In this document: one piece after another, positions 5,668 to 28,461 of the stretch | Position numbering within the stretch: position 1 is the first letter of the stretch | How the letters are laid out: the number at the start of each line of letters is the position of its first letter | Origin: Embleya hyalina | Lineage (GTDB): Bacteria; Actinomycetota; Actinomycetes; Streptomycetales; Streptomycetaceae | Reading direction: 5' to 3' | NCBI RefSeq assembly: GCF_003967355.1 | Contig: NZ_BIFH01000022.1 | Location: 186,001 to 250,000 of the forward strand | Length of the DNA stretch: 64,000 bases | Position numbers and translations under genes: made by a program | Notes under the pieces: generated by a model | What the model was told of the DNA's origin: nothing | Seen by the model: only the letters and a program-made list of their open reading frames with translations | The model's database searches: none

Positions 5668-5771
5668 CCCGATCCGCCGGTGCGCAGGGTGTTCCGGGGT
5701 TCGACGATACGTGCCGGTAAACCCGGAGTGGGTAATGGGAAATCCGCGCGAACGGGGTCCGGCGGATGACG

Positions 5772-5790
5772 AATCCCACCGGGTGGGATT
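5772..5790. promoter_or_regulatory. perfect 19-bp palindrome, likely operator
   Basis: AATCCCACC-G-GGTGGGATT: 9-bp perfect arms around a single central base, about 125 bp upstream of the decarboxylase start. The tight symmetry favours a dimeric repressor site over a terminator, since no gene ends here. Confidence 0.5.
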
Positions 5791-5915
5791 ACCTTCTTGG
5801 GCATCGAAATCCGATATTCCCCACGGTTCGCGTGCGGCCGTCGCGCGCCGTACGCGGGGACGGGGTCGGACACGCTCCGGGACGCGACCGGGGCCGGGAG
5901 GAAGGAGTCACCGGC

Positions 5916-7106: not shown

Positions 7107-7135
7107 TTGACCGACCGCCTCGAGAGGCGTAGTTT
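7107..7135 (+). promoter_or_regulatory. sigma70-type promoter of the phosphatase gene
   Basis: TTGACC (7107-7112), a 17-bp spacer and TAGTTT (7130-7135) match the vegetative consensus. A copy of the 15-bp palindromic operator lies directly downstream. The promoter shows that translation must start after about 7145. Confidence 0.7.
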
Positions 7136-7137
7136 AA

Positions 7138-7152
7138 CGAACAAGCGTTTGC
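7138..7152. promoter_or_regulatory. operator site 1 (CGAAC-AAGC-GTTTGC)
   Basis: One of six copies of a 15-bp imperfect palindrome found only in promoter regions of this window. It begins 3 bp after the -10 box, where a bound repressor would block the transcription start of the PAS/SpoIIE gene. Confidence 0.6.
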
Positions 7153-7223
7153 ACGTTTTGGTCGACAGGACCGGCCGCTCGGGAGGAGTGCGAACCGCGA
7201 CCCTCATCGATGAGGTGGATGTC

Positions 7224-9698
7224 ATGGACGTGCTCGGTGGCCCCACTGCCCTGGCCGTCATCGACGAAAGCGGACTCGTCGCCGCGTGGAACCCCGAGGC
7301 GGCCGTACTGCTCGGATACCAGGCGGGCGAGGTGATCGAGCGCCCCGCGCTGCGCCTGCTGGCCCGACCCGCCGACGCGATCGCGGCCCGCGACGTCGCG
7401 CACGGGGTGGGGGAGTGGACCGGAGACCTCCCGCTTCTCCATCGCGACGGTCGCCGTGTGGATGTGCACCTTCGGGCCCAGCGGCTGGCGAGTGGCGGCG
7501 CCCGATTCCAGTGGCTGGTCACCTTCGTCGAGTCGCGGATCGACGCACGGCCCGGGGACCGGGCCATGCTCGACTGGGTGCGCAGCCGTTCCCCCATGGC
7601 GATGACGGTCTACGACACGAACCTGCGGTGCGTGTGGCAGAACGACGCGATGTCCGCGCTCAGCGGTGTCTCGACCGAGGACCTGTGCGGTCCGTGTCCG
7701 CAACGGTTGCCGCGCGGTCCCGACGCGGAGGCATGGGAGCTGCGGATGCGTCGCGTCCTGGAGACGGGCGAACCGTGCCTGGACTTTCGGATCCGCGGTC
7801 GAACCCACGCCGACCCCGATCACGATCACCTGTTCTCCATGTCGGCGTCGTTGCTCCAGGACCGAAACGGGGACGCCGTCGGCGTGTGTACGACGGCGTT
7901 CGACGTCACCGATCGATTTCGCGACCGGGAGCGCCTGGCCCTGCTGAACGAGGCGAGTGTGCGCATCGGCACCACTCTCGACGTGATGCGGACGGCCCAG
8001 GAGCTGACCGACATCGCCGTGCCGCGACTCGCCGACTTCGTCGACGTCGACCTGCTCGACGGCCTGCTGCGCGGGGAGGAGCCCGTTCCCGGACCGATCA
8101 CCGGCACGATGGTGCTGCGGCGGGTCGCCCAGCAGTCCGTGCTTCCCGGGGCGCCCGAGGCGGTGGTGGCGCTGGGGGACGTGGACGTCTACACCGAGTA
8201 CTCCCCGCCGGCGGTGTGCCTGGCCACCGGCCGATCGACGCTGCATCGCACGATGGACGAACCGATCGCCTCGTGGGTCGCCGCCGACCCGGCCCGGGGG
8301 GCGAAGATCACCGAGTACGGATTCCACTCCTGGATGATCGTCCCGGTGCGGGCTCGCGGCCTGACGCTGGGGGTCGTGCTGTTCGGGCGCACGAGGTGCG
8401 AGGAGCCCTTCGAGGAGGCGGACCTGGCGCTCGCGGAGGAACTGGTGGCCCGGGCGGCGGTGTGCCTGGACAACGCCCGGCGCTTCGCCCGCGAGCGCGC
8501 GGCGGCGCTCACCCTGCAGCGCAGTCTGCTGCCGCAGGGTTTGCCGGACCAGGCCGCGGCCGAGGCGGCCTACCGATACCTGCCCGCCGACGTCGAGCTG
8601 GGCGTGGGCGGGGACTGGTTCGACGTCATTCCGCTGTCGGGCGCGCGCGTGGCGCTCGTCGTGGGGGACGTCGTCGGCCACGGTATCCACGCCGCCGCCG
8701 CGATGGGGCGTCTGCGCACCGCCGTGCGTACGCTCGCGGATGTCGATCTGGCCCCCGACGAACTGCTCACCCAGCTCGACGACCTGGTGATCCGGCTGTC
8801 GGCGGAGGCCAACCTCGAGGAGGACTGGGCCGGTGGGGACATCGGGGCGACGTGCCTGTACGCGGTCTACGACCCCGCCTCCAACCGGTGCAGTGTCGCG
8901 CGGGCGGGCCACCCGCCGCCCGCGGTGGTCGGTGCCGACGGCGCGGTGGAACTGCTCGACCTGCCCGCGGGGCCACCGCTGGGGCTGGGCGGGATGCCGT
9001 TCGAGTCGACCGAGGTGGAACTCGCCGAGGGCAGCGTCCTCGCGCTGTACACCGACGGCCTGATCGAGTCCCGCCATCGGGACGTGGACCAGGGGATCGA
9101 CGAGCTGCGCCACGCCCTGGCCGCTCCGGCCCCCTCGCTCGAAGCGATCTGCGACAACGTCATCGCGTCCCTGCTGCCCGACGGGCCGAAGGACGACGTG
9201 GTGCTCCTGCTGGCCCGACCGCGGGCATTTCGCGACGACCAGGTGGCCTCGTGGGAGGTTCCGGCGGAGCCCGAGGTCGTCGCCCGCGTGCGCGCCGAGG
9301 CGGCCCGGCAGCTGACCGAATGGGACCTCGAGGACGCGGTCTTCGGTACGGAGCTGGTCGTCAGTGAGCTCGTCACCAACGCGATCCGCCACGGCGAGGC
9401 GCCCATCAGACTCAGACTCATCCGCGATCGCACCCTGATCTGCGAGGTCTCCGACGGCAGCAACACCGTTCCGCATCTGCGGCGGGCTCGGACCTTCGAC
9501 GAGGGCGGGCGCGGGCTCCTGCTGGTTGCGCAGCTCTCCCAACGCTGGGGCACGCGCCAGTCGCCGATCGGTAAGACCATCTGGTGCGAGCAGGCGCTTC
9601 CCGTCGGGCACGACGCCGCACGGGGCCCTCGTGCGCCGATGCGGATCGGGACGTGGGACGTGTGCGTCGACGACGCGTGCGCGGTGACGAGTCGATAG
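7224..9698 (+). CDS. PAS-PAS-GAF-SpoIIE phosphatase-HATPase signalling protein
   Basis: An 824-aa soluble sensor phosphatase of the actinobacterial type that controls anti-sigma or anti-anti-sigma partners. Domains in order: PAS (about 5-110), PAS (115-235), GAF (240-415), a linker at ALTLQRSLLP, a SpoIIE-type PP2C (430-650, metal-binding GGDWFD and GDVVGHG) and a C-terminal HATPase (670-790, N-box SELVTNAIRHG). The frame is open upstream to a GTG at 7098, but the promoter at 7107-7135 excludes that start. The ATG at 7224 has GAGGTGG 5 nt upstream; a GTG at 7188 is an alternative. The ligand of the PAS/GAF sensors is unknown. Confidence 0.85.
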   Translation: MDVLGGPTALAVIDESGLVAAWNPEAAVLLGYQAGEVIERPALRLLARPADAIAARDVAHGVGEWTGDLPLLHRDGRRVDVHLRAQRLASGGARFQWLVTFVESRIDARPGDRAMLDWVRSRSPMAMTVYDTNLRCVWQNDAMSALSGVSTEDLCGPCPQRLPRGPDAEAWELRMRRVLETGEPCLDFRIRGRTHADPDHDHLFSMSASLLQDRNGDAVGVCTTAFDVTDRFRDRERLALLNEASVRIGTTLDVMRTAQELTDIAVPRLADFVDVDLLDGLLRGEEPVPGPITGTMVLRRVAQQSVLPGAPEAVVALGDVDVYTEYSPPAVCLATGRSTLHRTMDEPIASWVAADPARGAKITEYGFHSWMIVPVRARGLTLGVVLFGRTRCEEPFEEADLALAEELVARAAVCLDNARRFARERAAALTLQRSLLPQGLPDQAAAEAAYRYLPADVELGVGGDWFDVIPLSGARVALVVGDVVGHGIHAAAAMGRLRTAVRTLADVDLAPDELLTQLDDLVIRLSAEANLEEDWAGGDIGATCLYAVYDPASNRCSVARAGHPPPAVVGADGAVELLDLPAGPPLGLGGMPFESTEVELAEGSVLALYTDGLIESRHRDVDQGIDELRHALAAPAPSLEAICDNVIASLLPDGPKDDVVLLLARPRAFRDDQVASWEVPAEPEVVARVRAEAARQLTEWDLEDAVFGTELVVSELVTNAIRHGEAPIRLRLIRDRTLICEVSDGSNTVPHLRRARTFDEGGRGLLLVAQLSQRWGTRQSPIGKTIWCEQALPVGHDAARGPRAPMRIGTWDVCVDDACAVTSR

Positions 9699-9806
9699 CC
9701 GTCGGTCCGACCGCCGTCGGCCTCCGGCGCGCGATGGCGGGCCTCGCGCCGCGAGACGCACCACCCTTTGGGGCAATACGCTCGATAAAGCAATGAAAGG
9801 GAACAT

Positions 9807-11330
9807 ATGCGCACGGTAGCCGACATGGTGCGTCTCAACTCACGCCGCGGCCCGTCCGGCGAAGCCGTGGTGGACGCCCGGGGCAGGCTTTCCCACCGGG
9901 AACTCTCCCACCGTGCCTGGGCCCTGGCCCGGGGGCTGGTCGAGAACGGCGTGCGTCCCGGCGACAGCGTGGGGGTCCTCGCCGGCAACAGCGCGTTCTG
10001 CGCGGAGGCGTTCCTCGGGATCGCGACCGCGGGCGCGGTGTTCGTTCCGTACAACTGGCGATGGTCCACCGCCGAGTTGGTGGCGGGCGTGAACGAGACG
10101 GCGGCTCGGGTCGTGCTGGTGGAGGACATGTTCACCGACGCCTTCGAGGCCGCGCGCGCGACGGGTGATCTGGACGACGTGCGCCTGGTGGTGCCCCAGG
10201 GCGAGCGCTACGAGTCGTTCCTGCGCCCCGGGGGGCCGCCGCCCGTGGACATCGCGCCGAGCGACCCGCTGTGCATCCTGTTCACCGGCGGCACGACGGG
10301 GGTCTCCAAGGGCGTCGTGCTCTCGCACGCGGCCGCCCTGGCGAACATGTGCAACGAGGTGATCGACTGCGGCGTCGGTCGTTCCGCCACCGATCGCGGC
10401 CTGATCACCACGCCGCTGTTCCACTCCGCCGGCCTGCTGTGCTGGTTCCTGCCGCACTACGCCACCGGGGCCACCAGCGTGCTGCTGCACCGCTTCGACG
10501 AGGCGGAGGTGGCCGACGTCGTCGAGCGGGAACGGGTGACGAACATGTTCATGGTGCCGAACATGATCCGGCGCCTGATGAACGCGAACGCCTTCGAGAC
10601 ACCCGGCTTCCGGACATTCTTCCGGGCCCTGCACAGCGGGGCGGGCCTGCTCCGCACCTCGGACAAGCTGGCCCTGGTGGAGGCGATGCCCGACGTCTCG
10701 CTGTACTTTCGCTACGGACTGACCGAGGCCGGCCCCATGGTGACCCGACTGCGTCCGGTCGACATGCTGCGGGAGGACCTCCAAGGCTCCATCGGCAAGG
10801 AGTATCTGCTGGTCGAGGCGCAGATCCAGGACGACGAGGGCAGGGAGGTCGCCCCCGACGAGTCGGGCGAGATCTGCGTGCGGGGGCCGAGCGTGATGTC
10901 CGGCTACTTCAACCGTCCCGAGGAGACCGCGGCGGTATTTCGGGCCGGTTGGCTGCGCACGGGCGATCTCGCGGTGCGCGACCGCGAGGGGTACTTCTAC
11001 TTCCGGGACCGGGCCAAGGAGATGATCAAGAGCGGTGGGGAGAACGTCTACTCCGCCGAGATCGAGCAGGTGTTGCTGACCCACCCGGGGGTGATCGAGG
11101 CGATGGTGGTGGGCACGCCCAGCACGGAATGGGACGAGGAGGTGCGCGCGATCGTGGTCGCGCGTCCCGGACACGCTCCCACGGAGGCGGAACTGCGGGG
11201 CTTCCTCCGCGCCCGGCTCGCCGCCTACAAGGTGCCCAAGCGGGTGGTCTTCCGGGAGGCGTCGCAGATTCCGCGTTCGGCGGTCGGAAAGGCCCTCAAG
11301 GAGCGGCTCAAAAGCGACCTCGGTTGGTGA
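9807..11330 (+). CDS. AMP-forming acyl-CoA synthetase
   Basis: A 507-aa member of the ANL superfamily (medium/long-chain or aryl CoA ligases). ATP-binding motif FTGGTTGVSKGVVLSH, motif YGLTEAGP, hinge LRTGDLAV...YFYFRDRAKEMIKSGGENVY, and the C-terminal lysine in IPRSAVGKALK are all present. It should activate a carboxylic acid to its CoA ester. The start has GAAAGGGA upstream. It is the first enzyme of the 9.8-29 kb catabolic block and directly precedes the TetR gene, so it probably makes the CoA thioester that the carboxylase, dehydrogenase, hydratases and lyase then process (inference). Confidence 0.9.
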   Translation: MRTVADMVRLNSRRGPSGEAVVDARGRLSHRELSHRAWALARGLVENGVRPGDSVGVLAGNSAFCAEAFLGIATAGAVFVPYNWRWSTAELVAGVNETAARVVLVEDMFTDAFEAARATGDLDDVRLVVPQGERYESFLRPGGPPPVDIAPSDPLCILFTGGTTGVSKGVVLSHAAALANMCNEVIDCGVGRSATDRGLITTPLFHSAGLLCWFLPHYATGATSVLLHRFDEAEVADVVERERVTNMFMVPNMIRRLMNANAFETPGFRTFFRALHSGAGLLRTSDKLALVEAMPDVSLYFRYGLTEAGPMVTRLRPVDMLREDLQGSIGKEYLLVEAQIQDDEGREVAPDESGEICVRGPSVMSGYFNRPEETAAVFRAGWLRTGDLAVRDREGYFYFRDRAKEMIKSGGENVYSAEIEQVLLTHPGVIEAMVVGTPSTEWDEEVRAIVVARPGHAPTEAELRGFLRARLAAYKVPKRVVFREASQIPRSAVGKALKERLKSDLGW

Positions 11331-11346
11331 GCCGTCCCATGCTGAG

Positions 11347-11361
11347 CGGACGTTCGTTTGT
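11347..11361. promoter_or_regulatory. operator site 2 (CGGAC-GTTC-GTTTGT), tetR promoter
   Basis: The 15-bp motif lies inside a longer inverted repeat with 7-bp arms (11346-11352 GCGGACG and 11363-11369 CGTCCGC). A candidate -10, TACGAT, is at 11370-11375, so the site covers the -35/spacer area of the tetR promoter. This arrangement suits autorepression. Confidence 0.6.
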
Positions 11362-11419
11362 TCGTCCGCTACGATGGATCCGGTTCTCGCCTCACCGAAC
11401 GAGCCGATTGGAGTTGATC

Positions 11420-12052
11420 ATGCCTCGCCCGACCGGCGGCGTACGGACCGCCGACGCCATGCACGAAGCAGCGGCCGAACTCTTCTATCTGCATGGATAC
11501 GAGGCGACGAGTCTGCGGCAGGTCGCCGCGCGGATCGACATCCAGGTGGGCAGTCTCTACAACCACATCAACGGCAAGGACGACCTGCTCCGCAACATCA
11601 TGCTCGGCGTGATGAACGACCTTCTCGCCGCTCAGCGCACCGCGCTTCGGGGGCGGACCGACGTGGTGGACCGGCTGCGGGCGGCCATCGACTGCCACAT
11701 CCGCTTCCACGCGGGCAAGGCTCGCGAGGTGTTCATCGGCAACTCCGAGCTCAGGTCCCTCGGCGACAAGGACCGCCGCACCGTGGTGGCCAAGCGCGAC
11801 CAGTACGAGAAGGTGCTGCGCGTCCTGGTCGAGGAGGCCGCGGCGCAGGGGCGGGCGGACGTGGTGGACACGCGGTTGAGCGTGTACGCGATCGTCGCGA
11901 TCGGCACGCATGTGTCCACGTGGTACCGGCCGCAGGGCGAGTTGTCGATCGATCAGATCGTGGCCAAGAACATCGTGTTGTGTCTGCGGCAACTGGGCGT
12001 CTCCGCCGACGAGATCGAGGCCATCGAGGCCGCCTCCGCGGTGGGGGCCTGA
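11420..12052 (+). CDS. TetR-family transcriptional regulator
   Basis: A 210-aa regulator. The N-terminal helix-turn-helix (about 8-55) reads AAELFYLHGYEATSLRQVAA and then VGSLYNHINGKDDLL. The C-terminal ligand domain resembles regulators of acyl-CoA metabolism (TetR_C_33/KstR2-like), which usually bind an acyl-CoA or free acid. The ATG at 11420 has GGAG 6 nt upstream. It lies between the CoA ligase and the FAH/carboxylase operon, with a copy of the 15-bp palindrome in its own promoter. I infer that it is the repressor for all six copies. A 14-bp hairpin ends the unit. Confidence 0.9.
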   Translation: MPRPTGGVRTADAMHEAAAELFYLHGYEATSLRQVAARIDIQVGSLYNHINGKDDLLRNIMLGVMNDLLAAQRTALRGRTDVVDRLRAAIDCHIRFHAGKAREVFIGNSELRSLGDKDRRTVVAKRDQYEKVLRVLVEEAAAQGRADVVDTRLSVYAIVAIGTHVSTWYRPQGELSIDQIVAKNIVLCLRQLGVSADEIEAIEAASAVGA

Positions 12053-12070
12053 CCGTCCGGAACAGTTTTG

Positions 12071-12104
12071 GCGCCCGGTCCGAGCCTGTGCTCGGGCCGG
12101 GCGC
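12071..12104 (+). terminator. hairpin terminator after tetR
   Basis: A 14-bp stem (12071-12084 with 12091-12104, one G-U pair) with a 6-nt loop, 18 nt after the tetR stop. It isolates tetR from the FAH operon promoter that follows. Confidence 0.8.
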
Positions 12105-12122
12105 TTCGTCGTTCGTCCCCCA

Positions 12123-12152
12123 TTGACCGATCCGGGGCGTTCCACATAGATT
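12123..12152 (+). promoter_or_regulatory. sigma70-type promoter of the FAH/carboxylase operon
   Basis: TTGACC (12123-12128), an 18-bp spacer and TAGATT (12147-12152). The operator at 12159-12173 follows 6 bp later, covering the expected start of transcription. Confidence 0.75.
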
Positions 12153-12158
12153 GAAAAA

Positions 12159-12173
12159 CAAGCGATCGTTTGT
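12159..12173. promoter_or_regulatory. operator site 3 (CAAGC-GATC-GTTTGT)
   Basis: The best copy of the motif: with one base on each side it gives the near-perfect palindrome ACAAGCGATCGTTTGT. It lies between the -10 box and the ribosome binding site (AAGGAG, 12179-12184 area) of the FAH gene. Confidence 0.7.
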
Positions 12174-12188
12174 ATCAAGGAGTGTCGC

Positions 12189-13028
12189 ATGCGATTGGCC
12201 ACCGTCCGGCAGGGCAACGGCACACGCGCGGTCGTCGTCGGCGCGGACCACCTGGAGCTTCTGCCCCACCCCGACGTCGGATCGCTGCTCGTCGCGTCGG
12301 CCCGACGGGGCGGCGACGGCCTGCGCGACCTCTCCGGCACCAGGATCGCGGGCCTTCGCGCGGAATTCGCGCCGGTGGTCCCGCGACCGTCGAAGGTGTT
12401 GTGCGTCGGGCTCAACTACCGGGACCACATCTTCGAGATGAGCCGAGTGCCCCCCGAGTACCCCACACTCTTCGCCAAGTTCGGCGACACGCTGATGGGG
12501 GCGGATGACGACCTCGTGTTGCCGAGCGGGTCCACGTCCGTGGACTGGGAGGCCGAACTCGCCGTCGTCGTCGGTCGCACCGTGCGTCATGCGAGTGTGA
12601 GCGAGGCCGGCGACGCGATCGCCGGTTTCACCGTCGCCAACGATGTGTCGATGCGCGACTGGCAGCACCGCAGCGGTCAATGGCTCCAGGGCAAGGCGTT
12701 CGACGCCACCACTCCGCTCGGGCCCGTCCTGGTCACCCCCGACGAACTCGACGGCGCGGCGAACCTGGGGATCACCTGCACCGTCGACGGTGTGCTCAAG
12801 CAGCGCAGCAGCACGTCCCAACTGCTCTTCGCGCCGGCCGACCTCATCGCCTACGTCTCGCGGTTCACCACGCTGCGCCCGGGCGACATCGTGCTGACCG
12901 GCACCCCGGGCGGTGTGGGGGCGGCGCGCAAACCCCCCGAGTTCCTGCGCGCCGGCCAGGTACTGGAGACCACGATCGAGGGCATCGGCACCTGTCGCAA
13001 CACCTGCGTCCAGGAAGCGAGCGCGTGA
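12189..13028 (+). CDS. fumarylacetoacetate-hydrolase-family protein
   Basis: A 279-aa FAH-fold enzyme. The conserved VGLNYRDH start, the metal-binding acids in [11 protein letters not shown] and NDVSMRDWQ, the [11 protein letters not shown] segment and [14 protein letters not shown] are all present. FAH enzymes hydrolyse C-C bonds of acyl-pyruvates, or act as decarboxylases, hydratases or isomerases on dicarboxylic ring-cleavage products. It is the first gene after the operator-controlled promoter and its TGA overlaps the ATG of the biotin carboxylase gene. The substrate is not predictable; a role on a ring-cleavage or keto-acid intermediate is inferred. Confidence 0.9.
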
Positions 13029-14827
13029 TGACCTTCGCGAAGGTATTGGTGGCCAACCGGGGCGAGATCGCGGTCCGGGTCCTGCGCACGTGCCGCGAAC
13101 TGGGGCTCTCCTCGGTCGCCGTGTACTCCGAGCCCGACCGCGGCGCGCTGCACGTGCGGGTCGCCGACGAGGCCGTGGCGATCGGCGGGATCACCCCGGC
13201 CGAGAGCTACCTCGACATCGCCGCGATCCTCGCCGCCGCCGCCGCGTCCGGGGCCGATGCCGTGCACCCCGGCTACGGGTTCCTCGCCGAGAACGCGGAC
13301 TTCGCCCGCGCGGTCGAGGAGGCGGGGCTGGTCTTCGTCGGCCCCTCCTCCGGCGCGATCCACGTCATGGGGGAGAAGGTCGCGGCCCGCAAGGTCGCGC
13401 TGGCCGCCGACGTACCACTCATCCCGGGCACGACGACTCCCGTCACGCGCGCCGACGAGGTCCTGGCCTTCGGCGCGGAACACGGATACCCGCTGCTGAT
13501 CAAGGCGTCGTACGGCGGTGGAGGGCGCGGCATGCGCACCGTCGCCGCGGCGGAGGAGGTCGAACAGGCGTTGCGGGCCACCGCGCGGGAGGCCGCGGCG
13601 GCGTTCGGCAACGGGGACGTGTACGTCGAACGTTTCCTCGGCGGGGCACGTCACGTCGAGGTACAGGTGTTCGCGGACGGCCACGGCCACACGATCTGGC
13701 TGGGCGATCGCGACTGCTCGGTCCAGCGGCGGCACCAAAAGCTCGTCGAGGAGTCCCCGGCCCCCGGGCTGTCCGCCGAACTGCGCGTCGCCATGGGCGA
13801 GGCCGCGGTGCGGCTGGCGCGCGCGGTGGACTACGTCGGCGCGGGGACCGTGGAGTTCCTCGTCGACGGCGACGACTTCTACTTCCTGGAGATGAACACG
13901 CGCATCCAGGTCGAGCATCCCGTGACCGAGGAGGTCCTCGGCCTCGATCTGATCGCCGAACAGCTGAGGGTCGCCGCAGGGTCGCCGCTGACCGTGACCG
14001 AGTCGGGGCCCGCGCCCCGGGGTCACGCCATCGAGTGCCGGATCAACGCCGAGGACACCGCCGGAGGGCTCTTCGTGCCGGTACCCGGTCGGATCACGGA
14101 TCTTCGGGTGCCCCCGCGACCGGGCGTGCGCTTCGACACCGGCTACGAGAGCGGGGACGAGGTCCAGCCGTACTACGACAGCCTCATCGGCAAGCTGCTG
14201 GTCTGGGCCCCCGATCGCGCGACCGCGCTGCGTCGATTGCGGGCGGCGGTCGACGAACTGGTGATCTCGGGACCGCCGACCACCGCGACGGCCGTCGCGG
14301 CGGTGCTGGACCATCCCGATTTCGCGGCGGTCGCGATCTCGACGCGTTGGCTCGAGACCCGCGTGGAGTTCCCTTCGTCCGCCTCGCGTGACGATCAGGG
14401 GCACATCGCCGACGATCCGGGCGAGGACGGCGGCACCGGGCGGGAACGGGTGTGGGTGGCGGGTCGCCCGTACACCATCGCCCACCACGGCGGCCCTTCC
14501 TCGGGCGCTCCGGCCGCCGGCGCCACGCTCGGCCCCGTCGCCGGGCGAGCGCGTGGCGGTGGGTCGGGCCGCGGGCCCCGCAAGGCCGCGGGCGCGGTCG
14601 GCGACGGCACCGTGGCCAGCCCGATGCAGGGGACCGTGGTGGCGGTGAACGTCGGCGACGGCGAGCGCGTGGCCGCGGGCCAAGTCCTGTTCGTGGTCGA
14701 GGCGATGAAGATGCAGAATCCGGTCCGCGCCGTGAGGGCGGGTGTCGTGGCCGGCCTGAAGGTGGTGGTGGGCAGCGTCGTGGCCGCCGGGGAGGCACTC
14801 GCCCTCATCGCGTCGGATCCGGGATGA
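13028..14827 (+). CDS. acyl-CoA carboxylase alpha subunit (biotin carboxylase-BCCP)
   Basis: A 599-aa fused biotin carboxylase and biotin carrier protein. It has the N-terminal [11 protein letters not shown], the ATP-grasp glycine loop GGGGRGMR (about residue 163), [14 protein letters not shown], and the C-terminal biotinylation motif EAMKMQN with the biotin lysine at about 560. A low-complexity Gly/Ala/Arg linker (about 480-530) joins the halves. It carboxylates biotin with ATP and bicarbonate and must pair with a carboxyltransferase, most likely the one at 16933. The start overlaps the FAH stop. Length is near the family norm for actinobacterial AccA-type subunits. Confidence 0.93.
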
Positions 14828-14883
14828 CCGGGCAGCCGGCCCCGTCGTCCACCGAGTGATCGCCGTTTCGTCCGGGAGTCGCC

Positions 14884-15774
14884 ATGAAACCGTACCGTTC
14901 GATGTTGTTCGTACCCGGGCACAAGCCGCCCTGGGTGGCCAAGGCCCTGCGCTCCGGCGCCCACGCGCTGATCCTCGACCTGGAGGACGCGGTACCCGAA
15001 TCCGCCAAGGACCGGGCACGCGAGGCCGTGTCAGATGTGATCCGACACCTCGGGTGGGGCCGGGTGGGGGTGTTCGTGCGGGTCAACGCGCTGGACACCG
15101 AGCACTTCGCGAAGGACGTCGCGGCCGTCGTGCATCCGGGGCTGACCGGGCTGCTGCTGCCCAAGGTCGACGGTCGCGACGACGTGGTGGCCTACGACGC
15201 GCTGGTCACGGCGGCCGAGATCGAGCGCGGCATGCCTCGCGGCGGGGTGGGACTCGTGCCCTGCCTGGAGACCGCGCGGTCGATCTCGGCCGTGGACGCG
15301 ATCGCGACGGGCCCGCGGGTGACGTCGCTGATGGCGGCGGCGGCCAGGGACGCGGACGTCTCGCGCGACGTGGGATTTCGTTGGACGCCGACCGGAGAGG
15401 AGACGCTGTACCTGCGCAGCAGGATCGTTCTCGCGGCCCGGGCGGCCGGTCTGCGCCACATCGTCCTCGGCCTGTGGCAGGACGTGGACGATCTCGCGGG
15501 CCTGCGCGCCTTCGCCCGGTCCAACAGCGGGCTCGGCTTCGGTGGTCAGGTCCTCATCCATCCCTCGCACGTCGAGGTCGTCAACGAGGAGTACGCGATC
15601 GGCGACGCCGAACGCGATCGACTCCGCAGACTGGTCGAGACCTACGAGCACGCCGCCGGATCGGGGCAGGGCGCGGTCCGGTTCGAAGGTGATCACATCG
15701 ACCTGGCCCACGTGCGCCACGCACGAGACCTGCTGGCCGCGTCCCACGTCGACGAGGAGGTCGAAGCGCTGTGA
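14884..15774 (+). CDS. CitE-like CoA-ester lyase (HpcH/HpaI family)
   Basis: A 296-aa TIM-barrel protein of the HpcH/HpaI aldolase/CitE family. The N-terminal [11 protein letters not shown], the LDLEDAVP motif with Mg-binding acids, and the C-terminal [18 protein letters not shown] segment are diagnostic. Relatives cleave citryl-CoA, malyl-CoA or beta-methylmalyl-CoA. With a MaoC hydratase coupled directly downstream, the pair resembles hydratase/lyase couples such as mesaconyl-CoA hydratase with methylmalyl-CoA lyase: hydration of an unsaturated dicarboxyl-CoA, then retro-aldol or Claisen cleavage (inference). Confidence 0.88.
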
Positions 15775-16247
15775 GCGGACGTCATTTCGAGGAGTTCACC
15801 GTCGGTGAGGTCGTGCGCCACAGTGTCACGCGCACCGTCACCGAGACCGACAACCTGCTGTTCACCACGCTGACGATGAATCCGCAACCGCTGCACCTGG
15901 ACGAGGAGTTCGCCAAAGCCTCGATCTACGGCCGGCGCATCGTCAACAGTGTGTTCACCCTGGGCCTGGTGGCGGGACTGCACGTGGCGGACCTGACCCT
16001 GGGCACGACCCTGGGAAACCTGGGCTTCGAGGACGTGTCCTTCCCCCGCCCGGTGTTCGTCGGCGACACGCTCAGGGTGGAGAGCGAGGTGCTGGAGAAA
16101 CGGCTGTCGAAGTCCCGTCCGGACGCCGGGATCGTCCGCCTCGAACATCGTGCGTACAACCAGGACGGGGAACTGGTGTGCAGCCTGCGGCGGGTCGCGC
16201 TGATGCGGCGTCGGCACGGGGCCGACGCCGCATCCGGTGGTCCGTGA
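15771..16247 (+). CDS. MaoC-family dehydratase (hydratase)
   Basis: A 158-aa hot-dog-fold protein with the MaoC hydratase signature: [11 protein letters not shown] carries the catalytic Asp/His pair region, followed by [14 protein letters not shown]. The GTG start overlaps the lyase stop (GTGA), so the two are translationally coupled. It most resembles mesaconyl-CoA hydratase-type MaoC proteins. It likely adds water across an enoyl-CoA double bond to make the beta-hydroxyacyl-CoA that the CitE-like lyase cleaves. The substrate chain is unknown. Confidence 0.88.
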
Positions 16248-16339
16248 GCCGCGCCTGCGGCGGGAGCCCTCGACCCGTACGCCGGACGGGCGGCCCGGGA
16301 TCGTCGTCCCGGTCCGCGCGTCGCGGCGTCACAGGGGGG

Positions 16340-16834
16340 TCAAACCTCCCGGCACGCGACCAGGAAGCTGCCGGTGAACGTCATCACCGTGCGCGCGTGC
16401 TGGTCGACGGTGGTGTAGGCCAGCGTCCACAGCCCCCGACCGGGTTTCGAGGTCCGCCGGGCCGCGACGAGTTCGGCGGTGGGTCGGATGGTGTCGCCGA
16501 TCCGGACCGGCGCGTGGGCGCGCACCTCGTCCAACCCCAGCCACGCCTGCACGTTGCCGAACCACCCGGTCTGGGTCAGCAGGCCCAGACTGAGCGACAA
16601 CGAGAGCGGGCCGTGCCCGACGCGACCACCGAAGCCGGTGCTCGCCGCGTACTCCTCGTCCAGATGCAGTGACACCCAATCCCCGGTGAGCCCGGCCCAG
16701 GTCACCAGGTGGGCGTCGGTGACCGTCACCCCCGGGCCGCGCAGGACGTCACCGACGGCGAGGTCCTCCCAGTAGTGGCTCGACTGACCGGTGACCTCGA
16801 ATCGCGAGATCTTCGTCGGTTGGTCCACGGACAT
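16340..16834 (-). CDS. MaoC-family dehydratase
   Basis: A 164-aa second MaoC hot-dog protein, on the minus strand. It has the motif DWVSLHLDEEYAASTGFGGRVGHGPL, with the usual hydratase Asp/His positions, and a good ribosome binding site (GGGAGGG). It is divergent from the carboxyltransferase gene and shares operator site 4 with it, so it should be co-induced. It is clearly a different paralogue from the MaoC at 15771 and may act on an earlier or later enoyl-CoA of the same route. Confidence 0.87.
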   Translation of the reverse strand: MSVDQPTKISRFEVTGQSSHYWEDLAVGDVLRGPGVTVTDAHLVTWAGLTGDWVSLHLDEEYAASTGFGGRVGHGPLSLSLSLGLLTQTGWFGNVQAWLGLDEVRAHAPVRIGDTIRPTAELVAARRTSKPGRGLWTLAYTTVDQHARTVMTFTGSFLVACREV

Positions 16835-16854
16835 CGAATCCCTCCCTTAACTTA

Positions 16855-16869
16855 CAAGCGTTCGTTCGC
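16855..16869. promoter_or_regulatory. operator site 4 (CAAGC-GTTC-GTTCGC), divergent promoters
   Basis: The motif sits midway between the divergent MaoC and carboxyltransferase genes. On the plus strand TTAACT (16847-16852), a 17-bp spacer and TAAGCT (16870-16875) could be a promoter with the operator filling the spacer, so one bound dimer could block both directions. Confidence 0.6.
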
Positions 16870-16932
16870 TAAGCTAAAGCGCACCTTCGAGGGCGGTCAA
16901 GCAGGCGAACCCGTCGGAATCGGATGTGACGT

Positions 16933-18465
16933 ATGGCGCGAACTGTGCACGACGAGCTGCGGGATCGCCTCGCCCACGCTCGCCTCGGGGGATCGGCCGA
17001 GGCCCGGGAGAAGGTCTCGGCGTCCGGGAAGCTGCTGGTGCGTCGACGACTGGAGCTGCTCTTCGACGAGGGCTGGTCGTTCGAGGACGGTCTGCTCGCG
17101 CGGTTCGACGAGGGGCTGCCCGGAGACGCGGTGGTCACCTGCTTCGGCAGGGTCGACGGGCGCGATGTCGCCGTCGTCGCCAACGACTTCACCGTCAAGG
17201 CGGGCACCTGGGGCAAACGCACCTTCGAGAAGATCGTGCGCACCCAGGAGATCGCCGACGAGACCGGGATGCCCCTGGTCTATCTCTTCGACTCCGCCGG
17301 CGCTCGCATCGACGAGCAGTTCGAGAGTTACGCGGGGCGCCGGGCCTGGGGCAACATCTTCTACAACCAGGTGCAGATGTCGGGCCGGATTCCCCAGGTC
17401 TGCGCGCTCTTCGGTCCATCGCCGGCGGGCTCGGCCTACGTTCCCGCGCTGTGCGACTACACCGTCATGGTGCGCGGCCACGCGACCGCCTACCTGGGAT
17501 CGCCCCGCCTGGCCGAGATGGTGACGGGGGAGCGGGTCACCCTGGAGGAGATGGGCGGCGCCGAGATGCACTGCACCACCTCGGGCCTGGGCGACTGCCT
17601 CGTCGAGGACGACGAGGAGGCGATAGCGGCGATTCGGGTCTGGCTGTCGTATCTGCCGTCCGACTGGCGCGGTTCCCCGCCCGCGGTCGACGCCCGGCCG
17701 CCGGGCTCCGCGCGCACGGTCGAGGAGGTGGTGCCACTGAGCGAGTCGGAGGTCTACGACGTCCACGAGTTGATCGACGCGCTGGTGGACGAGGACAGCT
17801 TCTTCCCCTACAAGGAACTCTTCGCCCCCGAACTGGTCACCGGGTTCGCCCGGCTGGGCGGACGAAGCGTGGGCCTGGTGGCGAATCAGTCCGTCTCCCG
17901 CGGCGGCGTCATCTTCCCCGACTCCTCCGACAAGGCCGCCCGGTTCATCTGGATCTGCAACGCCTACAACATCCCGCTCGTCTTCCTGGTCGACATCGCC
18001 GGCTACATGATCGGGTCCGAGGTCGAACGCAAGGGCATCATCCGACACGGGGCCAAGATGCTCTTCGCCGTCGCCGAGAGCCGGGTGCCGAGGATCGCCG
18101 TGCTGATCCGCAAGGCCTACGGCGGCGGCTATCTGGCCATGTCGGGAGCGCCCATGAGACCCGACGCGGTGATCGCCCTGCCGACCGCCAAACCCGCTCT
18201 CATGGGACCGGACGCGGCCGTCAACGGCATCCACTACAACCGCATCCAGGCCATCGCGGACCCCGACGAACGCAAAAGATTCATCGCGGAGAAGCAGGCC
18301 GAGTACGCGGCCGACATCGACGTCTTCAAGATCGCGAACGAGAACGCGGTCGAAGCGGTGGTGCCCGCGAACCATCTGCGTGCCGAACTGATCGAGAGAT
18401 TGCACGTGTATCGGCGCCGGCCCGCCACAGGCGCCGCCCGACGCCAGGCGATCACCCCGGTCTGA
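16933..18465 (+). CDS. acyl-CoA carboxylase beta subunit (carboxyltransferase)
   Basis: A 510-aa carboxyltransferase of the propionyl-/methylcrotonyl-CoA carboxylase beta family. The N-terminal half has FDSAGARIDEQFESYAGRRA and the SAYVPALCDYTVMV oxyanion region; the C-terminal half has the second crotonase-like fold with GVIFPDSSDKAARFI and KAYGGGYLAMSG. It moves carboxyl from biotin to an acyl-CoA. The RIDEQFESYAGRRAWGNIF stretch is more like methylcrotonyl/geranyl types than PccB, but substrate specificity cannot be read by eye. It partners with the biotin carboxylase at 13028 and is controlled by operator site 4. Confidence 0.92.
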   Translation: MARTVHDELRDRLAHARLGGSAEAREKVSASGKLLVRRRLELLFDEGWSFEDGLLARFDEGLPGDAVVTCFGRVDGRDVAVVANDFTVKAGTWGKRTFEKIVRTQEIADETGMPLVYLFDSAGARIDEQFESYAGRRAWGNIFYNQVQMSGRIPQVCALFGPSPAGSAYVPALCDYTVMVRGHATAYLGSPRLAEMVTGERVTLEEMGGAEMHCTTSGLGDCLVEDDEEAIAAIRVWLSYLPSDWRGSPPAVDARPPGSARTVEEVVPLSESEVYDVHELIDALVDEDSFFPYKELFAPELVTGFARLGGRSVGLVANQSVSRGGVIFPDSSDKAARFIWICNAYNIPLVFLVDIAGYMIGSEVERKGIIRHGAKMLFAVAESRVPRIAVLIRKAYGGGYLAMSGAPMRPDAVIALPTAKPALMGPDAAVNGIHYNRIQAIADPDERKRFIAEKQAEYAADIDVFKIANENAVEAVVPANHLRAELIERLHVYRRRPATGAARRQAITPV

Positions 18466-18596
18466 ATCGTCGGCGACACCCGGGCGCGACGGGCGTGCCC
18501 GTCCCCACGGGCGCGCACGACGGGCACGGCCGGCCCGCGGTCCCGACCCCGACGAAGTCGGAGTCCATCCCATCCCCCCTGTCACAGGAGTTCACC

Positions 18597-19022
18597 ATGG
18601 CAACCGAGAACAACCGTCCCTTCGTGGTGCGCGCGGGCACCGAGACCGAGCAGACCGCGCAGTCCGAGGGCGCCCGACGACTGGCGGGGGTGAGCCCGGG
18701 CGCCACCCCGAGCAGCCGGATCTGGCTGGGCAAGGTCTCGAACGCCCCGGGGTACCGGTCGGTGCCGCATCACCACGGCGAGGCCGAGACGGCCGGATAC
18801 GTCCTCAAAGGGCGGGCGCGGATCTACTTCGGGCGCGCGTACCGCGAGTTCGTCGACCTGGAGGCGGGCGACTTCGTGTTCGTCCCGCCGAGGATCCCGC
18901 ACATCGAGGCCAACCTCAGCGACGACGCGGAACTGGTGTGGCTGACCGCCCGCACGCCGGACAACGTCGTGGTCAATCTGCCGGACGTCGACGACGCCGA
19001 CCTTCCAGGAGGAGCGCGATGA
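18597..19022 (+). CDS. cupin-domain protein
   Basis: A 141-aa single-domain cupin. Motif 1 is SVPHHHGEAETAGYVLKGRARIYFG with the His/Glu metal ligands, and motif 2 is DFVFVPPRIPHIEANL with the last His. The ATG at 18597 has AGGAG upstream, and the stop overlaps the monooxygenase ATG (ATGA). Members with this layout often bind a small ligand or isomerise sugars or keto acids; here it travels with an LLM oxygenase, suggesting an accessory or dioxygenase role (inference). The 131-bp gap before it holds only GC-rich repeats of GGGCG type. Confidence 0.85.
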   Translation: MATENNRPFVVRAGTETEQTAQSEGARRLAGVSPGATPSSRIWLGKVSNAPGYRSVPHHHGEAETAGYVLKGRARIYFGRAYREFVDLEAGDFVFVPPRIPHIEANLSDDAELVWLTARTPDNVVVNLPDVDDADLPGGAR

Positions 19023-19909
19023 CCCGGTTGGGCGTGGCGGTGGCCAACACCGGGGAGCGAGCGGTGCGGCCCGGCGTGGTGGCCATGGCGACCACGGCCG
19101 AGGAGGCGGGCGCGGACTCCCTGCACATCTCCGACCACGTGCTCCTGGTCGAGGGCGCCACGTCGCGCTATCCGTACGCGGAGGACGGCAGGTTCCCGTG
19201 GCCTCCCGATCTCGACGTGTTCGACCCCCTGGTCGCGTGCGCCTGGATCGCGGCGCACACCCGGCGCGTCGAGGTGGGCCCGTCGGTGCTCGTGCTTCCG
19301 CAACGACATCCGTTCGAGGTCGCCAAGACCGCCGCGACCATCGACCGCCTCTCGGGCGAGCGGCTGTTCCTGGGCGTCGGCGCCGGGTGGCTCGCCGAGG
19401 AGTTCGCCGCCCTCGGCCGGGACTTCCCCTCCCGTGTGGCACGCATGCACGAGGCCGTGGAGGTGTTGCGGCGCGCCTGGTCGGGGGATCGACGCGCCTA
19501 TGAGGGCGAGCACTTCCGGTACGGTCCGGGCGTGCACTGCCGACCCCTGCCGGCCCGGCCCGGCGGTGTGCCGCTGCTGTTCGGCGGCATGTCGAAGGCC
19601 GCGCTCAAGCGGGCGGCGACGATGGGCGACGGCTGGATCGCGCTGGCGACTCCGAGCCAGTCGCCGCGAGGCCCCGGGGAGAGCCTGCGCCGGGCGGAGG
19701 AACTGTTGCACACGGCGGGACGCGGGCGCGACAGGTTCCGCGCGGTGCTCAGGATCACCGCGACCACGCCCCAGGACCTCCCCGATCTGCCGGAGCGCGT
19801 CGTGGAGTACGCGGCCCTGGGCTTCGACGAGATCGTCGTCGATCCGCTGTGGCGCGACCTCGACGAGGCGGCGGGCGTGGTGGGCGCGTGCAGGCGCGCC
19901 CTGGGGTGA
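19019..19909 (+). CDS. LLM-class (luciferase-like) F420/FMN-dependent oxidoreductase
   Basis: A 296-aa TIM-barrel flavin or F420 enzyme. The motifs GADSLHISDHVLL, RRVEVGPSVLVLPQRHPFEVAKTAATIDRLSGERLFLGVGAGW and PLLFGGMSKAALKRAA are characteristic of the actinobacterial F420-dependent LLM family. The ATG at 19019 has AGGAGG 5 nt upstream and overlaps the cupin stop. It could oxidise an alcohol or ketone, or insert oxygen into a ring, early in the pathway. The cofactor choice is not proven by sequence. Confidence 0.88.
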   Translation: MTRLGVAVANTGERAVRPGVVAMATTAEEAGADSLHISDHVLLVEGATSRYPYAEDGRFPWPPDLDVFDPLVACAWIAAHTRRVEVGPSVLVLPQRHPFEVAKTAATIDRLSGERLFLGVGAGWLAEEFAALGRDFPSRVARMHEAVEVLRRAWSGDRRAYEGEHFRYGPGVHCRPLPARPGGVPLLFGGMSKAALKRAATMGDGWIALATPSQSPRGPGESLRRAEELLHTAGRGRDRFRAVLRITATTPQDLPDLPERVVEYAALGFDEIVVDPLWRDLDEAAGVVGACRRALG

Positions 19910-19934
19910 TCGACACGTGCCCGACATCGGGGTC

Positions 19935-19940
19935 TTGACA
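19935..19940 (+). promoter_or_regulatory. -35 box upstream of the NTF2-fold gene
   Basis: A consensus TTGACA about 65 bp before the start codon. A matching -10 is less clear (TATGTC at a 15-bp spacing or TCCTAT at 19). Operator site 5 follows at 19967. Confidence 0.45.
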
Positions 19941-19966
19941 CCTCGCGCTGTCGGGTATGTCCTATG

Positions 19967-19981
19967 CGAACAATCGTTTGT
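19967..19981. promoter_or_regulatory. operator site 5 (CGAAC-AATC-GTTTGT)
   Basis: A copy of the 15-bp palindrome between the TTGACA box and the start of the NTF2-fold gene. It differs from site 3 only in the left half and spacer. Confidence 0.6.
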
Positions 19982-20004
19982 ACATCATGGTGCAGGGAGA
20001 TCCC

Positions 20005-20529
20005 GTGGACGCTCTGGAAGCTCGCATCGCGAAGCTCGAGGCGATCGAGGACATCAAACGACTGAAGCAGCACCACATCGAGCTGACCGATGCCGGGTAC
20101 CTCGTCGACGCGCTCGTCGACCTGTGGTGCGAGGACGGGACCTGGCTCGGGGTCTTCACCGACATCGACGACCCCCTGGAGGCGGGAAGCCGCGGCCAGA
20201 CCCGCTACCACGGTCACGACGAGATCCGGAGGTTCTGGGAACTCAACGGCCGACTCTACGACTTCGTCCTGCACGTGATGATCCCGCTGGACATCCGGGT
20301 CAACGACGACCTGGAGACCGCGACGGGCACGTGGAAGTGGCTGATGCCGTCCACGCGCGACGTCGACGGCGTGCCGACCGCGACCTGGCTGGGCGGCACG
20401 CAGTCCGACGAGTACCGCAGGGTCGACGGGGTCTGGAAGTTCTACACCGTGCAGGTGCACGCGGACCTCGTCGCCACCCACCTGGGCGGCTGGGTCCCGA
20501 GCCGATACATCGAGGAATCGCCCGTCTAG
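20005..20529 (+). CDS. NTF2/SnoaL-fold protein
   Basis: A 174-aa protein of the nuclear-transport-factor-2-like/SnoaL group (scytalone dehydratase, ring-hydroxylating beta subunit and limonene-epoxide-hydrolase fold). It starts with the helix EARIAKLEAIEDIKRLKQHH and has WCEDGTWLGVF, HGHDEIRRFWE and VDGVWKFY strands typical of the cone. I chose the GTG at 20005 because AGGGAGA lies 4 nt upstream and operator site 5 rules out starts before 19982; an ATG at 19987 is possible. Operator control suggests it belongs to the catabolic set, perhaps as a dehydratase or epoxide hydrolase. Confidence 0.8.
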   Translation: MDALEARIAKLEAIEDIKRLKQHHIELTDAGYLVDALVDLWCEDGTWLGVFTDIDDPLEAGSRGQTRYHGHDEIRRFWELNGRLYDFVLHVMIPLDIRVNDDLETATGTWKWLMPSTRDVDGVPTATWLGGTQSDEYRRVDGVWKFYTVQVHADLVATHLGGWVPSRYIEESPV

Positions 20530-20687
20530 GACCGTCGGAGCGGATCGATCCCGCCGGAGTGTCCCGGTACGACCGATCGAACGGTCCAGCGCGTCGAAGC
20601 GATCAACTCGGGGGAGTGATCGAGACTCCCGTCTCGCGAACGACGATCCTCGGACGCCTTTCGTCGACCCGAAGCGACGAACCAAGA

Positions 20688-20702
20688 AAAGCAATCGTTA
20701 GT
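20688..20702. promoter_or_regulatory. operator site 6 (AAAGC-AATC-GTTAGT)
   Basis: The weakest of the six copies, 25 bp before the substrate-binding-protein start and inside a longer GAAAA...TTTTC symmetry. No good -10/-35 pair was found around it. Confidence 0.5.
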
Positions 20703-20726: not shown

Positions 20727-21851
20727 ATGCGATCCAAGAGTTGGAGCGCCGCGCGTGGCTGGGCCGCCGGCGTCGCGGCGCTGGGCATGGTGCTCGCCGG
20801 CTGCGCCGAAACCAAGACATCCGAGACAAGCGGCAACAGCGCCCCGAACAACGGCGCCCCGGCCCCCGGGGCCGCCCCCGCGGGAGCGCCGGGCGATATC
20901 GCCTCCCTGTGCGGGACACGACCCATCAAGATCGCGTTCGCCAAGGGCAAGGGCGACAGCTGGACCAAGATCACCCTGGCCGAGCTGAAGAAGGAGGCCG
21001 CGAAGTGTCCCAACATCAAGGCGACCCTGTACACCGACGCCGGCGGTGACCAGACCAAGTCACTGTCCGACATCAACAGCCTGGTGGCGCAGGACGTCGA
21101 CATCATCGTCGTGATGGCCGAGTTCGGCGCCGCCCAACTGTCGGCGATGCGCTCCGCCGTCAAGTCGGGCACCAAGGTCATCGCCCTGATCGACGATCCC
21201 GGGGGCAAGGCCGGCACGGACTACACCGACATGGTCCTGCCCGACACCGAGGCGACCGGCCGGGCCTGGGCCGAATGGATCGGCAAGGTCGCCCCCAGCG
21301 GCAAGGCCGTGTTCCTGGGAGGCGTTCCGGGAGCCCAGTCCAGCCAACAGTTCTTCAAGCCGGTGCAGGCGGCGCTGGCGGCCTACCCCAACGTCAAGCT
21401 CGTCGAGAACCGGGTCGTGGACACCGACTGGGAACCCGGCAAGCGCAAGCAGGTCATGTCCGGTCTGCTCGCCAAGTACGGGCGCATCGACGTGGTCATC
21501 TCCGACTACGGCGCCATCGACAACGCCACCCTGGACGCCTACAAGCAGGCCGGCATGGCACCTCCGGCGCTGGCGGCCGTCGCGAGTTCCAACGGAACCG
21601 CGTGCTACTGGAAGTCGACGCCCTTCCCGTACATGTCGATCGACGGCCAGGTCAAGCTCGCCGCCGTCGCGCTGCGCAAGGGCCTGGCGGCGCTCAACAA
21701 CATCACCGACACCGAGCCGTCCGTGGTTCCGATGCCCGTCGAGGTCGACACCGCGGCCAACAAGAATCCGGTCTGCTCGCCGAACCTGCCGCCCGACGCC
21801 TCCCTCGGATCGAGCCTGACTCCGGCGGAACTGGACTCCATCTTCAAGTAG
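20727..21851 (+). CDS. ribose-type ABC transporter substrate-binding lipoprotein
   Basis: A 374-aa secreted lipoprotein: signal peptide with lipobox VLAGC (Cys26), a Pro/Ala/Gly-rich linker (30-50), then a periplasmic-binding-protein type 1 fold (RPIKIAFAKGKGDSWTKI, VDIIVVMAEFGAAQLSAMRSAVKSGTKVIAL, AVFLGGVPGAQSS). It captures the substrate for the permeases encoded next. Family members bind sugars, autoinducer-2 or other small polar compounds; the operator and neighbours suggest that here it takes up the pathway's substrate rather than a sugar (inference). Start ATG has AGGGAG upstream. Confidence 0.9.
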   Translation: MRSKSWSAARGWAAGVAALGMVLAGCAETKTSETSGNSAPNNGAPAPGAAPAGAPGDIASLCGTRPIKIAFAKGKGDSWTKITLAELKKEAAKCPNIKATLYTDAGGDQTKSLSDINSLVAQDVDIIVVMAEFGAAQLSAMRSAVKSGTKVIALIDDPGGKAGTDYTDMVLPDTEATGRAWAEWIGKVAPSGKAVFLGGVPGAQSSQQFFKPVQAALAAYPNVKLVENRVVDTDWEPGKRKQVMSGLLAKYGRIDVVISDYGAIDNATLDAYKQAGMAPPALAAVASSNGTACYWKSTPFPYMSIDGQVKLAAVALRKGLAALNNITDTEPSVVPMPVEVDTAANKNPVCSPNLPPDASLGSSLTPAELDSIFK

Positions 21852-21964
21852 GCATGCCCGCGACCCGGTATCCGGCGACCGACTCCAACGGGGGCGCCGG
21901 AGCCCAGCGGACGAAGGCCCGGCCGCGCGCCGGGCGCACCCCACGATTCGGAAGGGAACACCCG

Positions 21965-27050: not shown

Positions 27051-27065
27051 GGATTTCGGGGACCG

Positions 27066-27095
27066 GGACCGGCGGCCCGCATCGACCGCCGGTCC
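27066..27095 (+). terminator. hairpin after the aldehyde dehydrogenase gene
   Basis: A perfect 10-bp stem (27066-27075 with 27086-27095) with a 10-nt loop, 15 nt after the stop. It may partly end the importer/ALDH transcript. Confidence 0.6.
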
Positions 27096-27135
27096 ACGCG
27101 ACAGGAACGCACGATCTTCACGAAGGGCCACTCCC

Positions 27136-28398: not shown

Positions 28399-28405
28399 AC
28401 GTGTA

Positions 28406-28439: not shown

Positions 28440-28461
28440 GATGGTTTCGAAGGAGAAACAC

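Follow-up and report, generated by a model that had tools for sequence, protein, structure and literature searches.

A stretch of 64,000 nucleotides from the Embleya hyalina genome (contig NZ_BIFH01000022.1, positions 186,001 to 250,000; hereafter the window) carries a gene for a TetR-family regulator and six copies of a 16-bp palindromic operator in the promoter regions around it. All six sites were confirmed and far exceed what chance would produce. The explanation that best accounts for them, to which we give a probability of about 0.88, is that one TetR protein (encoded at 11420-12052) represses six promoters through this operator and is released by a coenzyme A (CoA) thioester. In the proposed mechanism, TetR would bind the palindrome as a dimer or as overlapping dimers and exclude RNA polymerase from the promoters of tetR itself, a phosphatase gene, a FAH/biotin-carboxylase/CitE/MaoC operon, a MaoC2/carboxyltransferase pair, an NTF2-fold gene and an ATP-binding cassette (ABC) importer operon, until the CoA thioester of the pathway's own substrate frees it.

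A 16-bp palindrome at six promoters

A first-pass annotation of the window had proposed a one-TetR regulon around a 15-bp motif, CRARC-N4-GTTNGY, in six copies. Direct reading and a motif search of the window found the element at all six places, but the 15-mer as written is exact at only four, with one mismatch each at 11347 (CGGAC...) and 20688 (AAAGC...). We prefer to describe it as a 16-bp palindrome made of ACRARC half-sites around a spacer of 4, which reads RCRARCRWTCGTTYGY in the window and ACGAACGnnCGTTCGT in relatives. We dropped the bare 15-mer as a specific motif: it has 403 exact matches (212 + 191) in the 12,054,215-base genome, one of them at 56420 of the window within a gene. Searching the genome with RCRARCRWTCGTTYGY at no more than one mismatch gave 22 rows, or 19 distinct places, and the reversed-pattern control gave 1. 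Five of the 19 fall in one 13.6-kb stretch here, and the sixth site (20687), with two mismatches, is for that reason unlisted; since the 16-mer was drawn from the window sites, these counts describe its specificity and are no independent test. According to a rough gene caller, nine of the 14 other places are clearly genic, one is in a doubtful open reading frame (ORF; locus L019) and four are intergenic (L008, L009, L014 and L018); one of the 14 is at 49347 of the window. The four lone intergenic sites each lie at 1501-1516 of their locus, that in L018 being 90 bp upstream of a FAD-type monooxygenase-like gene and that in L014 between hydrolase-like and acetyltransferase-like genes (both by eye).

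With the gene starts we chose, none of the six sites touches a gene, for which the naive chance is 8e-8 given that 6.5% of 5766-29124 is intergenic; the starts at 7224 and 20005 were preferred by eye for their ribosome-binding sites, and the longest mechanical ORFs, from 7098 and 19957, would cover two of the sites. The sites are A+T-richer than the window (70.7% GC). Operator 4 does separate divergent genes, MaoC2 to the left and carboxyltransferase to the right, as had been described. At the tetR promoter the element is present, though a matrix built from orthologous loci favours the register 11350-11365 over that of the first-pass annotation, 11346-11361. A 24-bp palindrome, GCGGACG-N10-CGTCCGC at 11346-11369, spans the overlapping operator-like registers at this promoter and may offer room for two dimers or for another regulator.

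Three of the operators stand in a fixed relation to a promoter. The pattern TTGACC-N17/18-TAGNTT has exactly three occurrences in the 64 kb and none in 100 shuffles, and each of the three adjoins an operator, which begins 1, 5 and 1 bp past the -10 element at operators 1, 3 and 4, respectively (Table 1). Two of these promoters had been noted before and are borne out by the count; the third, which serves the leftward MaoC2 gene, was absent from the first-pass annotation. No promoter of this form was found at sites 19966 and 20687, and that of tetR is also of another form: judged by eye, a TACGAT hexamer downstream of the operator may serve as its -10. Only some of the relatives' sites have a TANNNT hexamer within 7 bp of the operator, so the geometry may not be a general one. 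Transcription from the three promoters would start inside the operator and steric blocking is therefore the natural reading, making it likely that repression there works by covering the transcription start site.

The operator and its predicted TetR across genomes

The same motif is recovered when the window is left out. We applied palindromic expectation-maximisation to 97 intergenic stretches from six orthologous loci, identified by their TetR protein (L020, L021, L035, L039, L040 and L043), using public annotation for the last three and the rough gene caller for the rest. The de novo motif is ACGAACGnnCGTTCGT, with a log-likelihood ratio of 129.7; six dinucleotide-shuffled sets gave ratios of 45-62 and no comparable motif. 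Scored with this relatives' matrix, the nine best positions in the window all fall at the six places (12158, 19966, 11350, 7137, 16850/16854 and 20687, together with 12154 and 7141, which are 4-bp offsets of sites 12158 and 7137), and ranks ten and eleven, at 18610 and 49343, fall in genes. Conversely, the window's own matrix at a score of at least 15 finds 11 sites in the three annotated loci, 10 of them intergenic (Fisher 4e-7).

Operator type follows the recognition helix of the TetR. Homologues were collected from genome contigs (5 loci), plasmids (16 records, 10 taken) and further genomes. They gave 26 TetR hits, spread over 24 loci, and we scanned flanking DNA to a distance of at most 600 bp on each side of every gene; L034/L035, L027/L036 and L028/L037 are the same places and were counted once, L025 is the window itself, and L043 was held apart from the group with the window-type operator (motif A). 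All eight TetRs with the helix ..SLYNHI (L020, L021, L022 twice, L035, L039, L040 and L042) have motif A within this distance, at 17.1-23.3 bits, in hosts that range from Pseudonocardia to plasmids of Rhodococcus and Methylobacterium. All nine sister TetRs with the helix IRGPSLYKHV (L026-L033 and L041) instead have exactly two RCTA-N8-TAGY boxes (for example at 9730 and 9817 of L036 and at 9838 and 9924 of L041), and motif A never exceeds 10.0 near them; the sister box was found neither in the window nor anywhere in L020, L021, L022, L035, L039, L040 and L043. Helix and operator type therefore agree in 17 of the 17 TetRs with either helix. The remaining eight TetRs, with other helices, have neither motif, the best A score being 13.8. 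The motif-A loci were all first picked out with the window matrix, and five of the eight motif-A genes belong to matrix-training loci; L022 (two genes) and L042 lie outside the training set, and L042 is close to L040. With the same genes preceded by the operator in relatives, the comparison supports the one-TetR regulon first proposed, and the prediction that the 16-bp operator belongs to the cluster's TetR is well supported.

The genes concerned recur from locus to locus. The relatives' operator precedes tetR in L020, L021, L022, L039, L040 and L042, the biotin carboxylase gene in L020, L021, L035 and L039, the carboxyltransferase gene in L020, L021 and L035, and an aldehyde dehydrogenase gene in L039, and the AMP-ligase gene is also among those preceded. 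It stands before an importer in two loci, a Liv-type ABC system in L035 and a tripartite ATP-independent periplasmic (TRAP) transporter in L022.

Several results weigh against this account. When the relatives' sites were cast as a covariance model of sequence only, the genome of the window gave no significant match among the 150 of 2830 first-look candidates scored, the best having E 7.7 and being genic; the model's background is probably ill-matched to GC-rich DNA. On the window itself it reported five of the six places, with 49349 and 6081 next in rank; 20687 was missed, and at 11350 half of the model was matched. The tetR site is the lowest scoring with the window's own matrix (19.1) and its register is unclear, site 20687 has two mismatches to the 16-mer, and no operator of its own was found for the AMP-ligase gene (9807-11330). 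In L043, whose TetR (38% identical) has the helix VQAGSLYNYF, the operator occurs in the locus and not within 600 bp of tetR. The TetRs of L045 and L046 (Paracoccus and Ciceribacter) group with the motif-A proteins in a 12-row clade (support 82/86), yet no motif A was seen in the 600 bp flanking their genes; at residue 48 they carry S and Q, respectively, in place of N. Finally, motif-A and other-box TetRs sit on either side of one branch of the tree, so a single event may have changed both helix and operator.

The poor fits bear on a narrower reading in which only 7137, 12158, 16854 and 19966 are operators and those before tetR and the ABC importer resemble the motif by chance. The latter two are the poorest fits to the window motif, mismatch even its loose form and lack promoters of the TTGACC-TAGNTT form. 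Both are nevertheless among the six best places in 64 kb with a matrix learnt elsewhere, and the operator recurs upstream of tetR (at the second copy in L022) and of an importer in the relatives listed above, so we regard the narrower reading as unlikely. It is less probable still that the operator is real and read by another regulator, such as another TetR of this genome. The TetR query returned 169 first-look candidates there, so many paralogues may exist, and the low score of the tetR site would fit such a reading; against it, the operator accompanies this TetR in seven other loci from several families and two phyla, sister TetRs with a different helix have a different box, and no other shared regulator was noticed among those loci, which are partly annotated and were not searched systematically for one. 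That the palindromes are a by-product of composition or codon use in GC-rich DNA, as the 403 loose matches and the genic majority of other 16-mer places might suggest, can be put aside almost entirely given the intergenic, A+T-richer sites and the recovery of the motif from relatives.

The motif-A TetRs and their sister clade, which differ both in helix and in operator, provide a simple natural case for studying the TetR recognition code and how operators change. Their recognition helices differ consistently at residues 43, 44 (G/A versus P), 48 (N versus K) and 50. L020 has R at residue 42 and yet has motif A, so this residue is not decisive; residues 44 and 48 are the favoured candidates for operator specificity. 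Near TetR genes with helices ..IYHH/LYHH we also saw CCAAGCGATCGTTCGG (L044, 7715-7730) and CCGAACGATCGCTCGG (L023, 10582-10597), possibly a third operator class. A Corynebacterium metagenome-assembled genome (L022) has two TetR copies, at 10004-10624 and 19302-19907, one at each end of the cluster and each with operators nearby. On a Methylobacterium plasmid (L040, 1208-11982), a TetR relative is divergent from an isovaleryl-CoA dehydrogenase/carboxylase/HMG-CoA lyase cluster, and the 172-bp gap between them holds two ACGAAC-N4-GTTCGT operators.

The TetR protein and the closest known systems

The protein has the domains of a TetR-family one-component repressor (TetR_N, 7.9e-12; TetR_C_24, 8e-29), and palindromic operators lie close to its own gene, at 11350 and at the next promoter, 12158. 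Its nearest solved structures are 3vpr, 3him and 5k7f by profile and 4mxm, 4mo7 and 3vpr by single sequence. A fold model built with four sequences (pLDDT, a model's own confidence score, 80.9, the best of five at 64.6-80.9) matched 3him, PfmR, AibR with isovaleryl-CoA, PfiT, KstR2, FadR with stearoyl-CoA and BkaR, the top ones being TetR-family regulators. The matches include the CoA-thioester-bound AibR and FadR, and from this resemblance of a modelled fold we infer that the effector is likely to be a CoA thioester.

The operator class is already known. PaaR (TTHA0973) of Thermus thermophilus is a TetR repressor whose reported operator, 5'-CNAACGNNCGTTNG-3' (Sakamoto et al., as quoted in PMC6651687), is the inner 14 bp of the consensus ACGAACGnnCGTTCGT; single window sites deviate, for example with R at the fifth base. 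The title of a reference in PMC6651687 gives phenylacetyl-CoA as its effector. PaaR controls phenylacetate genes, and no paa genes were recognised among the annotated genes of 5766-29124. PfmR of the same species (TTHB023, 3vpr) is the best profile match (E 9e-40), third by single sequence and second among the fold matches; passages of PMC7022988 describe a 16-bp palindromic operator at several promoters and control of fatty-acid and phenylacetate genes, with a CTGACCG-like consensus as against the ACGAACG-like one found here. AibR of Myxococcus xanthus, about 27% identical, matches in its isovaleryl-CoA complex with TMt 0.91 and a root-mean-square deviation (rmsd) of 1.8, and its ligand is a substrate of the dehydrogenase encoded beside Methylobacterium relatives of the window TetR. 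It also serves as a warning, since AibR is described in passages of PMC6018408 as repressing when ligand-bound: a ligand can also strengthen repression.

Two further regulators resemble this one by context. BkaR (Rv2506/MSMEG_4718) of mycobacteria represses itself and an accD1-citE-type cluster, according to passages of PMC3920632. It is more distant in sequence (4g12, E 6e-8; entry 6yj2, of the same sequence, is titled BkaR), and its operator, GTTA-N-T-N4-A-N-TAAC in that source, is unlike the window operator, which rules it out as the same regulator. LiuQ is a TetR protein that comparative genomics has linked to the control of branched-chain amino acid degradation, and passages of PMC5343134 give it as unique to beta-proteobacteria among the classes studied; Methylobacterium relatives of the window TetR likewise adjoin isovaleryl-CoA dehydrogenase and carboxylase genes. 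In the open PMC literature we found no paper on this TetR group and none on monoterpene/mycofactocin/TetR, and a search with the operator letters gave no TetR-regulator paper by title among those listed. Operator class and kind of control are known; the present analysis assigns an operator and a set of genes to this TetR group, which makes its regulator, its operator and the probable class of its inducer open to direct tests. The group spreads with a carboxylase-based degradation pathway among actinobacteria and plasmids.

The gene cluster and the phosphatase gene

The gene content indicates a cluster that breaks down a CoA-linked compound, with what would be ordinary control in an undescribed pathway. 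The predicted substrate is a branched acid that would undergo ligation, dehydrogenation, carboxylation, hydration and lyase cleavage. AMP-ligase, TetR and biotin carboxylase-biotin carboxyl carrier protein (BCCP) form the core kept in relatives, which also have the carboxyltransferase (L020, L021, L035 and L039), the CitE-like lyase and MaoC (L020, L021, L022 and L035) and the cupin (L020, L021 and L035). The CitE-like and MaoC genes resemble the mycobacterial gene arrangement around Rv2498c, but the carboxyltransferase matches propionyl-CoA-type subunits best, followed by AccD1 and, lower again, by those of the methylcrotonyl and geranyl types. We therefore dropped methylcrotonyl-CoA carboxylase proper as an identification. 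Rv2498c itself serves leucine and itaconate breakdown in mycobacteria (PMC6689899).

Within the family of the host, the TetR occurs in one of 297 genomes (E <= 1e-45) and the carboxyltransferase in one of 150 (E <= 1e-200), with the best 10 or fewer candidates per genome scored; in both cases the genome is that of the window. Because close relatives occur in other families and on a plasmid of Rhodococcus, the cluster was probably acquired horizontally. Importer type differs among the window, L035 and L022, where a TRAP-type binding protein gene takes the place of the ABC importer of other hosts; thus the transporter varies by host and the operator stays.

The phosphatase gene behind operator 1 is the least ordinary feature of the proposed regulon. 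Phosphatases of the PAS-GAF-SpoIIE-HATPase type work in sigma-factor partner switching, and one under this operator would link a single nutrient signal to sigma-factor control. The gene has no relative in the 10 loci compared. Its family has 13 matches in the host genome, 12 besides the window gene, and the two of these examined have no operator near the gene; other matches in the genus are at best 57% identical, and none of the 11 loci examined, out of 38 other matches, has a site of at least 17 bits. Weaker sites of 16.4 (L053), 15.4 (L052) and 13.9 bits (L051) each lie upstream of the matching region by about 1.2 kb. On these grounds we do not regard the SpoIIE gene as a long-standing part of the regulon; it seems to be a local gene that has come under the operator. 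We tentatively suggest, as a speculation that may well prove wrong, that a repressor moving with a mobile acyl-CoA carboxylation pathway draws its neighbours under its operator, namely three transporter types in three hosts and here the phosphatase, in which case the inducer would also switch a general stress or developmental programme.

Table 1. Coordinates of the operators, promoters and genes of the proposed regulon in the window
Feature	Position	Strand	Remarks
Promoter TTGACC-N17-TAGTTT of the PAS-GAF-SpoIIE phosphatase gene	7107-7135	+	Pattern match
Operator 1, ACGAACAAGCGTTTGC	7137-7152	+	1 mismatch; 17.4 bits; 1 bp past -10, 71 bp before ATG 7224
PAS-PAS-GAF-SpoIIE-HATPase_c_2 protein	7224-9698	+	824 aa from chosen start; longest ORF from 7098 would cover operator 1
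AMP-binding acyl-CoA ligase	9807-11330	+	54-59% identity in 5 actinobacterial loci
Operator 2, ACGTTCGTTTGTTCGT, tetR promoter	11350-11365	+	17.7 bits at 11350, 13.2 at 11346
TetR repressor, TetR_N + TetR_C_24	11420-12052	+	210 aa; recognition helix IQVGSLYNHI, residues 41-50
Promoter TTGACC-N18-TAGATT of the FAH/carboxylase operon	12123-12152	+	Pattern match
Operator 3, ACAAGCGATCGTTTGT	12158-12173	+	0 mismatches; 20.1 bits, top score of the window; 5 bp past -10
Likely operon FAH/biotin carboxylase/CitE/MaoC	12189-16247	+	
FAH-family hydrolase	12189-13028	+	
Biotin carboxylase-BCCP	13028-14827	+	
CitE-like lyase	14884-15774	+	
MaoC hydratase	15771-16247	+	
Second MaoC-like protein (MaoC2)	16340-16834	-	Divergent
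Operator 4, ACAAGCGTTCGTTCGC	16854-16869	.	Between divergent genes; 0 mismatches; 16.7 bits, 17.2 at 4-bp offset 16850
Leftward promoter TTGACC-N18-TAGCTT	16871-16900	-	Read 16900-16871; operator 4 (16869-16854) begins 1 bp past -10
Carboxyltransferase subunit of acyl-CoA carboxylase	16933-18465	+	79-85% identity in 4 orthologous loci (L020, L021, L035, L039)
Cupin	18597-19022	+	
LLM-class F420-type oxidoreductase	19019-19909	+	
Operator 5, GCGAACAATCGTTTGT	19966-19981	+	0 mismatches; 19.4 bits
SnoaL_4/NTF2-fold protein	20005-20529	+	Chosen start; longest ORF from 19957 would cover operator 5
Operator 6, AAAAGCAATCGTTAGT	20687-20702	+	Two mismatches to 16-mer; 16.4 bits
Sugar-type ABC importer	20727-25490	+	Binding protein 20727-21851; ATPase-permease fusion 21965-24454
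Probable second importer permease	24453-25490	+	No Pfam match; by eye
Aldehyde dehydrogenase	25572-27050	+	
Acyl-CoA dehydrogenase	27136-28398	+	
Short-chain dehydrogenase/reductase (SDR)	28462-29124	+	

The genes at 25572-29124, downstream of the importer, perhaps belong to the same transcription unit. The gene directly upstream of the phosphatase gene, at 5766-7040, encodes a pyridoxal-dependent decarboxylase-like protein with the Orn/DAP/Arg decarboxylase fold and has no separate operator.

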